Virus record (IMG/VR): IMGVR_UViG_3300025276_000167
Coordinates: 1 to 28,017 of that record
Reading direction: 5' to 3' (one strand)
Origin: a virus
DNA: 28,017 nt
The translations under genes were made by a program, and so were the position numbers. This document shows positions 16,689 to 21,787 of the stretch, piece after piece. The notes under the pieces were generated by a model. That model was not told the DNA's origin and did no database searches. It worked only from the letters and a program-made list of their open reading frames with translations. The number at the start of each line of letters is the position of its first letter. Within the stretch, counting starts at the first letter, position 1.

Positions 16689-17462
16689 CTAAGGTACAAA
16701 AGTATCTTCCATTTTCTGTATTGCTTTAAAGATTTCGTGTGCGACTTGTGGAACTATGGCGTTACCGTAGGCTTTGATTGATTCGTTTCTCCATTTTGGA
16801 AAGGTAATGCCGTCCAGTTCTTTGGGAAGCCCATCATCTCCTCCACAAATAGGGGGTTGAGTTGGGAACTCTTCCCAGCTTCTTGGCTTACTAAATGATT
16901 TAGTTCGCTCCGTCTGCTTACTCCGTCCGTCCTTTCTTTGGATGTTCCCCCTTTGTAGTCGTTTAACCTGGGTGTCGGGAGCAACAAACCAAATTCTATC
17001 CCTTCGGTGGGGAGCGTTTTTACCGCAAGCTGGAAGTAAATACGGTGTGACTTCGTAGCCTTCAACTTCCAAGTCAGAACACACTTGTTCGAATACCAAA
17101 CCCCCCGACCAATTAAGAAGCCCGCGAACGTTTTCGCCCACAACGTAGCGCGGGGAAACTTCCCGAATGATTCTAAGCATCTCTGGCCATAAGTGGCGGT
17201 CATCTTCTGTTCCTTTTCTAAGTCCTGCTGCGCTAAATGGTTGGCAGGGGAATCCCCCTGTGAGAATATCAACTCGTCCAGAGTAGCTTGATGCGTCAAA
17301 GGTTTTGATGTCTTCATATAGTTTTGAGTTTGGGAAATGGTAGTTTAAAACCTTTTGTGCAAAGGGTTCGCGTTCGCAATGAAAGACGTTTTCCCACCCC
17401 ATCCATTCGGCCGCCAGGTCAAACCCACCTATTCCGCTAAAAAGTGATCCGTGCTTAAGCAT
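16689..17462 (-). CDS. dcm: Solo DNA cytosine-C5 methyltransferase
   Basis: 257 residues. Motif I is FSGIGGFDL (8-16, SAM binding), motif IV GGFPCQPF (69-76, catalytic Cys73), motif VI ENV (110-112), motif VIII RRDRIWFV (153-160), and motif X AYGNAIVPQV (231-240). The target-recognition region between VIII and IX is only about 65 residues, so the protein is shorter than typical members (about 320-400). It transfers methyl to C5 of cytosine in an unknown target. No restriction endonuclease is adjacent, so the likely role is masking phage DNA from host restriction or regulation. It is the last gene of the minus cassette, starting 8 bases inside the previous gene. A second long frame lies inside it. 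Confidence 0.93.
   Translation of the reverse strand: MLKHGSLFSGIGGFDLAAEWMGWENVFHCEREPFAQKVLNYHFPNSKLYEDIKTFDASSYSGRVDILTGGFPCQPFSAAGLRKGTEDDRHLWPEMLRIIREVSPRYVVGENVRGLLNWSGGLVFEQVCSDLEVEGYEVTPYLLPACGKNAPHRRDRIWFVAPDTQVKRLQRGNIQRKDGRSKQTERTKSFSKPRSWEEFPTQPPICGGDDGLPKELDGITFPKWRNESIKAYGNAIVPQVAHEIFKAIQKMEDTFVP
16754..17317 (-). CDS. Nested protein in a second frame of the methyltransferase gene
   Basis: 187 residues, from ATG at 17317, entirely inside the methyltransferase gene and shifted by one base. It contains MTATYGQRCLESFGKF, CVLTWKLKATKSHRIYFQLA, FGLLLPTPRLNDYKGGTSKE and SSQLNPLFVEEMMGFPKNWT. From memory, these blocks (especially LTWK.KATK....FQL and LNP.FVE.MMGFP..WT) recur in phage and plasmid proteins annotated as hypothetical or methylase-associated, in both free-standing and overlapping genes. 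It spans methyltransferase codons 49-236. A chance open frame of 188 codons at about 40% GC is unlikely but not impossible, given constraint from the outer gene. Function unknown; if expressed it may partner the methyltransferase. Confidence 0.55.
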   Translation of the reverse strand: MKTSKPLTHQATLDELIFSQGDSPANHLAQQDLEKEQKMTATYGQRCLESFGKFPRATLWAKTFAGFLIGRGVWYSNKCVLTWKLKATKSHRIYFQLAVKTLPTEGIEFGLLLPTPRLNDYKGGTSKERTDGVSRRSELNHLVSQEAGKSSQLNPLFVEEMMGFPKNWTALPFQNGETNQSKPTVTP

Positions 17463-17814
17463 TTTGAAGTTGTTTTATTAAAGCCGTCTTAACGCTACTG
17501 ATTGAGTTAATACGTTCGGATAAAGATAGTATGTACGTATCGACTTCGTCTTTGTTAGTTGCCACGTAATAGCCTTTTGAGGTAGCAATAAGCAACGGAA
17601 CGAGGTTGTGCGTACGTATGTGATGAACAATCTTTCTTAACCTTGTGTCGGTTATCTTACATCCCCCGACTTTAAGAGCTTTACAAATATCCTTATTCGT
17701 TATGGCTTTGTCTTTGCCTACTTTATTAGATAGGCCATGCACTACAATAGGCAAAAGCGTATGTAGTTCGTAGTCGTTTAGTTCGTGGGTTTCCCGTTCA
17801 AAGTTTGTAATCAT
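17455..17814 (-). CDS. Hypothetical protein, possible winged helix
   Basis: 119 residues from ATG at 17814, chosen because that ATG overlaps the TGA of the upstream 36-residue gene (ATGA); an upstream in-frame ATG at 17838 would overlap that gene by 28 bases. The protein (ITNFERETHELNDYELHTLL, then ITNKDICKALKVGGCKITDT and RLRKIVHHIRTHNLVPLLIA with TSKGYYVATNKDEV) reads like a winged-helix DNA-binding module: helices, then a 'G.kitd.rlRkiv..ir....vP.l.as.kGYyva' wing. This form is familiar from phage proteins that sense or rearrange DNA, but I cannot name the family. It overlaps the methyltransferase start by 8 bases. Confidence 0.7.
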   Translation of the reverse strand: MITNFERETHELNDYELHTLLPIVVHGLSNKVGKDKAITNKDICKALKVGGCKITDTRLRKIVHHIRTHNLVPLLIATSKGYYVATNKDEVDTYILSLSERINSISSVKTALIKQLQNA

Positions 17815-17921
17815 TCTTCTTCGTTTAAAAATTCGCAATGCTCTAAGCAGTCGGGGCAGATGCCTAATTCAGTCATAAAGCAAGAAGCCCCACAACAATC
17901 GCTTAATGGTTCGTAATTCAT
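17811..17921 (-). CDS. Tiny Cys-rich zinc-ribbon-like protein
   Basis: 36 residues: starts NYEPLSDCCGASCF and continues ICPDCLEHCEFLNEEE. Two Cys pairs (CCGASC and CPDCLEHC) and an acidic tail look like a mini zinc ribbon. Very similar small 'LSDCCGA...D.CP.C.EHCE' proteins are common in Bacteroidetes and their phages, in my memory. Its start overlaps the upstream TGA and its TGA overlaps the next ATG, which strongly supports translation despite the small size. Function unknown. Confidence 0.75.
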   Translation of the reverse strand: MNYEPLSDCCGASCFMTELGICPDCLEHCEFLNEEE

Positions 17922-20462: not shown

Positions 20463-20948
20463 ATGACACCTGCCCAGGCGTGGGAGCATGGTAGCAATGT
20501 ACGGGAGGCTTTTAAGCACGAACCTAAGATGGTGCATATTTCGCTTATGGCTTTGCTTAAAGATGCGGTTGACTATTTAGAATACAACAAGAGCTTCCGA
20601 CACGAGGGGGATTACATAGAAGCCATCGACTATTTAATTAAGGAGTTTCCCGTGATGAAGATAGAAGAATGGAAAATTATATGCGTCAACCTAAAGGCGG
20701 GCAAATACGGCAAGATGTACGAACGCTTAAAACTTCCCGAACTTATCGAGATATTCCAAAAGTTCGAAGGGGAACGGGCAGAGATGCGTGAGAAACAAAT
20801 GCGAAGAAATAAAGACGTACCACCTTTGCCAAACATAGACCCCGAACTTATAAAGCGTTTATCTAAAGACCTGGCTTTACCCGAACCAGAAACCGACGAG
20901 AAAGGAAGATGGGATTTTATACCACATCCAAACACACCCGAACAATGA
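20463..20948 (+). CDS. Replication-associated protein, helicase-loader-like context
   Basis: 161 residues from ATG at 20463 (TPAQAWEHGSNVREAF onward), 1 base after the stop of the replication gene; ATGs at 20328 and 20388 lie inside the previous gene and are rejected. Helical, with 'yi.aIdyLi.efp.mkieEwk.i..n.kaGkYGkmYerl..peliei...fe.er'. I know this GKYGK block from Bacteroidetes mobile elements, next to replication proteins, but cannot give a verified function. A role in helicase loading or primosome assembly is inferred. It is coupled to the next gene by ATGA. Confidence 0.7.
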   Translation: MTPAQAWEHGSNVREAFKHEPKMVHISLMALLKDAVDYLEYNKSFRHEGDYIEAIDYLIKEFPVMKIEEWKIICVNLKAGKYGKMYERLKLPELIEIFQKFEGERAEMREKQMRRNKDVPPLPNIDPELIKRLSKDLALPEPETDEKGRWDFIPHPNTPEQ

Positions 20949-21787
20949 AAACTTGTACAAGCATATCAGGAGGACAAAGTTCCGCATATTTAGCAGCAAA
21001 CTACCCCACAGATTACAATGTTTTTGCTCTTGTAACTATTGAAGATCCTAAGTGTTCACCTAAAGATAAAAAATTAATTCAAATGGTTAGTGATAAAATT
21101 GGGAGAGAGTTTGTAGCGACAGTAGAAGATGATATTATACTACACACGATCCTCGATTTAGAGCAGTACATAGGTAATGAAATTGACTGGGTTAATATAA
21201 TCTCATTTGACGAGGTTACAGAAAAGAAAGGGGGGTGGCTACCTAACAAGCTCCACAGATATTGCACAGTTGAAATGAAGTTACGCGCCATATTCAGGTG
21301 GTGGAGAAGCAAAATCAATGAACCAGTCGAGATGAGAATTGGATTTAGAGGCAACGAACATAGACGAGCTACAAAGATGATAGAACGACAAAACGAGAAT
21401 GGTTTGCTTGAGTTTAAGGATATTGTAGGTCAACACAAATCAGGACGCAATAAATGGCAGACAATTGAGTGGCAAAAACCGAGCTTTCCGCTTATAAAAG
21501 ATGGTATTTTGAGGCATACAATAGTAGAGTACTGGAAAGATCAACCAGTAAGATTTGCGCCCTTAAACAATTGCGTTGGCTGCTTTCATAGAAACCCTTT
21601 ACTCTTGCGTAAAATGTGGGATTTGCACCCTGAAAAAATGGAGTGGTTCGCGTCAAAAGAAAGAATAAAAGGTAACGGACAGTGGCGAAGCGATTTAACC
21701 TATGACAAAATAAAAAAACACAAACCACAACATGAGATAAATTTTGATGATTTATCCTCTTGCGATTCAGGTTACTGTGGTCTTTGA
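20945..21787 (+). CDS. PP-loop / PAPS-reductase-family protein (IbrA-like)
   Basis: 280 residues from ATG at 20945 (ATGA overlap). The N-terminal SISGGQSSAYLA (SGGQSS at 8-13) is a PP-loop of adenine-nucleotide alpha-hydrolases, giving ATP/PAPS-type nucleotide binding. Cys107 lies in LHRYCTVEMKLRAIF, and CVGC (210-213) in LNNCVGCFHRNPLLLRKMWD suggests an Fe-S or Zn site, with further Cys at 273 and 278 at the very end. Known relatives include PAPS reductase, DndC and IbrA. The substrate is unknown: options are sulfur transfer to nucleic acid, a small molecule, or a regulatory role. A ParB-like gene lies 1.9 kb downstream. Confidence 0.85.
   Translation: MKTCTSISGGQSSAYLAANYPTDYNVFALVTIEDPKCSPKDKKLIQMVSDKIGREFVATVEDDIILHTILDLEQYIGNEIDWVNIISFDEVTEKKGGWLPNKLHRYCTVEMKLRAIFRWWRSKINEPVEMRIGFRGNEHRRATKMIERQNENGLLEFKDIVGQHKSGRNKWQTIEWQKPSFPLIKDGILRHTIVEYWKDQPVRFAPLNNCVGCFHRNPLLLRKMWDLHPEKMEWFASKERIKGNGQWRSDLTYDKIKKHKPQHEINFDDLSSCDSGYCGL

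Follow-up and report, generated by a model that had tools for sequence, protein, structure and literature searches.

A phage C5-cytosine methyltransferase is very probably split into two subunits that overlapping reading frames of one gene encode

The multispecific C5-cytosine methyltransferases of Bacillus phages (M.SPRI, M.phi3T) are single chains with tandem recognition modules of ~40 residues between conserved motifs VIII and IX. Other C5-cytosine methyltransferases are split. In M.EcoHK31I one large polypeptide has motifs I-VIII, motif X and the predicted target-recognition domain (TRD), and a second, smaller one has motif IX only; in M.AquI motifs IX-X lie in the smaller subunit (PMC3404938). 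Here we describe a methyltransferase gene in a 28-kb virus record (IMG/VR IMGVR_UViG_3300025276_000167, positions 1 to 28,017; this whole stretch is called the window) in which terminase, head protease-like and amidase genes are also present. The outer open reading frame (ORF), alpha (16689..17462, minus strand), contains a second ORF, beta (16754..17317, minus strand), in the +1 frame. Comparison with related sequences makes a split C5-cytosine methyltransferase very probable, with both subunits coming from this one gene and the nested frame being the beta subunit.

In layout, which is the level at which the two were compared, the window resembles M.EcoHK31I (YGGCCR): the large subunit has motifs I-VIII and X without IX, and the small subunit has IX. 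Lee, Kam and Shaw are said to have reported in 1995 that the small polypeptide of M.EcoHK31I is encoded in another frame within the large gene, and the small-subunit gene of the window likewise lies in another frame inside the large one. These testable structural features support the view that the system works like M.EcoHK31I, from which it differs in being phage-borne. A 4.3-kb E. coli plasmid with a methyltransferase gene and a neighbouring hypothetical gene was considered as a candidate source of M.EcoHK31I; no nested gene is annotated on it, and it was not taken further. In M.AquI (CYCGRG) the chain is broken into two after motif VIII and before motif IX, similar to architecture B described below. 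The window differs in having motif X in alpha and a wholly nested beta, so that its small subunit does not combine IX with X as that of M.AquI does. Single-chain actinophage enzymes of the Mycobacterium phage Fancypants type share LPTP-type modules and a motif IX of the form PRLxPxFxEWMMGWPxGW with the window, but have modules, IX and X in frame with motifs I-VIII. The module array is also similar in layout to those of M.SPRI and M.phi3T, but here it stands on a separate nested subunit. A search of the available literature for phage occurrences of the nested two-subunit layout found none.

The conserved motifs are divided between the two frames. Alpha (257 residues) matches PF00145 (E 4.7e-46), and its residues 5-161 align to M.HhaI by phmmer. 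The family hallmarks are present in motif I (SLFSGIGGFD, 17418..17447, upstream of the beta ORF), motif IV (GGFPCQPFS, with PCQ and the catalytic Cys, 17232..17258, under the beta N-terminus), motif VI (ENV, 17127..17135) and motif VIII (PHRRDRIWFVA, with RxR, 16980..17012, its end overlapped by beta LLLPTP), all located from the sequence and the M.HhaI alignment; these and all further features of the locus are on the minus strand. Profile comparison identified motif X (GNAIVPQV, 16743..16766), as the alpha C-terminus RNESIKAYGNAIVPQVAHEIF matches motif X of single-chain enzymes, and X only (probability 93). Motif IX is absent from alpha and is found in beta (QLNPLFVEEMMGFPKNWT, 16811..16864). 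Beta ends with this motif (SQLNPLFVEEMMGFPKNWT), and its segment SQLNPLFVEEMMGFPKNWTA matches motif IX of single-chain enzymes PRLNPAFSEWMMGWPAGWVT, and IX only (probability 96.5). Residues 4-466 of a single-chain enzyme model align to M.HhaI 10-326 over the whole length (Z 24.6), and through this model the beta motif IX would be equivalent to that of M.HhaI. The beta N-terminal domain matches the N-terminal domain of the partly overlapping, AquI-like betas of architecture B (E 8e-18). Beta and its relatives also match the PHROG 1008 profile (E 4.5e-19 to 3e-44), which is labelled 'DNA methyltransferase'. This label appears to have been transferred from the overlapping alpha gene; nested proteins matching PHROG 1008 have no significant Pfam methyltransferase match, and Pfam and NCBIfam scans of beta returned no significant match. 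PDB sequence searches gave no match with the beta profile and chance matches only with a IX-X profile.

Beta was first noticed in a sequence-only reading, which described it exactly: an ATG start, 187 residues and a stop, shifted +1 within a C5-cytosine methyltransferase gene. It spans the DNA between alpha motifs IV and X, with its stop just inside motif X. That reading placed the nested C-terminus over both the target-recognition region and motif X; the first placement holds, and only a non-conserved tail extends to the second. An IMG/VR search with the nested protein yielded 80 loci, and in all of them (80/80) the nested frame is open in the +1 frame of a methyltransferase, although a set gathered in this way is biased towards the nested frame. 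The search was repeated with the alpha protein only to remove this bias and again gave 80 loci, every one with a nested match. The +1 frame is uninterrupted in 78 of these 80, over 172-280 codons, so the frequent stops in relatives that had been named as grounds for rejecting the frame did not appear; the remaining two carry the same nested gene with a single stop. The longest open run in the alpha-fetched loci has a median of 226 codons in +1 versus 39 in +2. When synonymous codons were permuted within each of 73 methyltransferase genes (500 shuffles), the longest +1 ORF averaged 94 codons versus the observed median of 226, and the observed length was reached in 0/500 shuffles in 56 of the 73 genes and in 1/500 for the window. 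The +2 frame showed no excess in the same test (40 codons observed, 46 expected).

Synonymous diversity in alpha, expressed relative to saturation, is strongly depressed inside the overlap only. These tests count sequence pairs without tree correction, and the region outside the overlap serves as an internal control for relatedness. The ratio stands at 0.92 for codons 1-48, drops to 0.64 over codons 49-236 (the overlap) and is back at 0.92 for codons 237-257. It is 0.47 across SDLEVEGY (LTWKLKA in beta), at the conserved beta block CVLTWKLKATKSHRIYFQLAV (17021..17083), a predicted two-strand hairpin; across the beta motif IX it is 0.17-0.37, with the minimum of 0.17 at DDGLPKEL, opposite motif IX and the conserved C-terminus of beta. 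A separate, independent Firmicutes set repeated the pattern (0.53 inside versus 0.80 outside), contrary to the normal variation expected of a chance frame. Codon phase changes along the gene. Upstream of beta, differences at alpha positions 1/2/3 are 0.19/0.12/0.51. In the motif IX stretch they are 0.31/0.17/0.24, the most variable being alpha position 1 (beta position 3), and in the variable modules they are 0.24/0.17/0.49 at beta positions 1/2/3 (206 ungapped pairs). Codon phase thus follows beta in the modules and motif IX, and beta rather than alpha dominates selection in the middle of the gene. The nested beta ORF is a real gene under selection, as the sequence-only reading had proposed.

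Relatives of beta also occur beyond any overlap, and three architectures were distinguished. In architecture A, that of the window and of Bacteroidota and Firmicutes loci, beta is wholly nested and alpha carries motifs I-VIII and X; tblastn matches of this type were also found in a Nostoc and a Leptospira plasmid. In architecture B, found in viral contigs L240-L294 and Mycobacterium phage Murai, alpha ends after motif VIII, and beta begins inside alpha in +1 and continues after alpha has ended, carrying the modules and motifs IX and X. Several LPTP modules are present in the betas of L240-L294, and some have an extra module after motif X. Architecture C is a single chain in one frame and is found in actinophages. 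Architectures B and C carry the half with modules and motif IX outside any overlap, which supplies the homologues that the sequence-only reading had called for. Of the free-standing copies it mentioned, none standing fully alone without any alpha was found, and the non-nested copies either partly overlap alpha or are fused to it. Some type C actinophages (L215, L216, L219, L230, L232) have kept a +1 ORF across motifs IV-VIII whose product resembles the N-terminal domain of beta; alpha and base composition may account for this ORF, or it could be a relic or a functional small protein. Open nested beta-like frames were also seen in the C5-cytosine methyltransferases of E. coli phage Bas75 (L166) and Klebsiella phage KpV2811 (L168), which have divergent N-termini, the Pfam match beginning near residue 67.

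In the stretch from the first LLPTP to motif IX, betas carry 1-7 modules of ~35-45 residues, most of which start with [LMI]xTP. The window's beta has one variable module, a putative target-recognition module delimited by module comparison and codon phase (LPTPRLNDYKGG...SELNHLVSQEA, 16877..16981). Members of one module family turn up in different loci, and for 26 of 175 nested modules a counterpart was found in B or C proteins. From these comparisons and the codon phase, the 35-45-residue modules between VIII and IX belong to beta, and because they do, beta is probably the specificity subunit and its modules would act as TRDs. Less likely, beta gives motif IX and structural support only, and target recognition lies in alpha, as described for M.EcoHK31I. 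Alpha is indeed open across the variable DNA in nearly all loci, but module substitutions concentrate at the third positions of beta codons (0.49) and are scarce at those of alpha codons (0.17), as expected if the DNA evolves as beta, and the same module families are present in B and C, which read this part in a single frame. The suggestion that beta is an unrecognised partner or specificity protein is therefore supported as to partner or specificity and only partly right as to unrecognised: the two-polypeptide make-up of M.EcoHK31I is published, and the frame is already listed as PHROG 1008 and, in Paenibacillus phage Lily, as 'g62 internal gene' (single annotators).

The start of beta is kept at one place. 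An ATG lies within 4 codons of the position of the window's beta ATG in 69 of 72 loci, compared with 24% for other nine-codon stretches, and in four clostridial loci a Shine-Dalgarno site (AAAGGAGG) stands six bases 5' of the beta ATG, inside alpha. Both observations oppose an improbable scheme, rejected here, in which programmed frameshifting from alpha reads into +1 and yields an alpha-beta fusion with no separate subunit. Single-chain enzymes do have the same domain in frame, but frameshifting would have to occur twice to make a complete enzyme, once into +1 and once back for motif X, and constraint on beta is already seen upstream of every junction that could follow motif VIII.

The explanation favoured here is one split enzyme with two separately started subunits. 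Frame 0 would give alpha, with AdoMet (S-adenosylmethionine) binding, the catalytic Cys of motif IV, and motifs VI, VIII and X but not IX. A second start inside alpha would open the +1 frame, from which beta is presumably translated in this phage as an N-terminal domain, its variable module or modules and motif IX, with its end short of X. The two chains would then assemble into a complex with the motif set of M.HhaI, in which beta would be a small DNA-reading domain whose modules set the target sequence. Methylation would label the phage's own DNA, with protection from host restriction as the most likely benefit. Some observations weigh against this scheme. The TRD of M.EcoHK31I is predicted in the large subunit, whereas codon phase here places the variable modules in beta. 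A Shine-Dalgarno site was looked for before the beta start in the window and none is there. AlphaFold modelled beta alone poorly (mean predicted local distance difference test score, pLDDT, 55), with no fold match (best Foldseek E 0.41). In eight Bacteroides/Parabacteroides copies (L190, L192, L193, L195, L201, L202, L203, L212) beta is open over ~290-350 codons while alpha has 2-3 in-frame TGA codons each, mostly at conserved Trp, which would be odd if beta needs its own alpha. Phage stop-codon recoding is an unlikely cause of these codons, as one record carries ordinary chromosomal genes. One further locus, L085, has one in-frame TGA in alpha, at a glycine.

The interrupted copies favour a view of beta as a separate protein unrelated to methylation, such as a regulator or an anti-restriction factor, whose overlap with alpha is fortuitous. 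This is as improbable as frameshifting, given that beta has the motif IX absent from alpha and has homologues joined to motif X or to a whole enzyme. A chance open frame kept only because alpha is conserved is hardly credible and was rejected: alpha motifs do dictate certain nested residues (for example LLPTP opposite motif VIII and MMGFP opposite DDGLP) and even codon-shuffled genes keep ~94 open codons, but the excess length over shuffled genes, synonymous constraint confined to the overlap, the flip in codon phase, the conserved start codon and the homologues beyond the overlap all contradict it.

The three architectures may have arisen in the order C, B, A or in the reverse order. In the first case motif X would have gone back to the alpha frame; the modules and motif IX of an ancestral beta would then have been overprinted by the alpha stretch between VIII and X, and ancestral alpha by the beta N-terminus. 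On balance we lean slightly towards beta being an exchangeable specificity subunit with 1-7 target modules, in a pair that arose by such reciprocal overprinting.

Upstream of alpha in the window lies a phage gene of unknown function (phrog_2113, 17455..17838), whose stop overlaps the alpha start; alpha begins 8 bases before the end of this gene, which suggests coupled translation. A phosphoadenosine phosphosulfate reductase-like gene is present at 20909-21787 of the window, and such genes also lie close to the methyltransferase in two Bacteroides phages (L001, L005).

This kind of layout has already been published for M.EcoHK31I; what is new is how widely it occurs among phages and phyla, and the assignment of the modules between VIII and IX to beta. 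In phages and prophages of several phyla, each subunit would limit the evolution of the other at every shared base of a single stretch of DNA, with the nested gene mostly unannotated or filed as 'DNA methyltransferase'. Many phage C5-cytosine methyltransferases tested singly may look inactive, as recoding of the gene would have destroyed the nested partner. Architectures A, B and C together offer a case for following overprinting in both directions and, if the modules set specificity, beta would be a natural kit of target modules.
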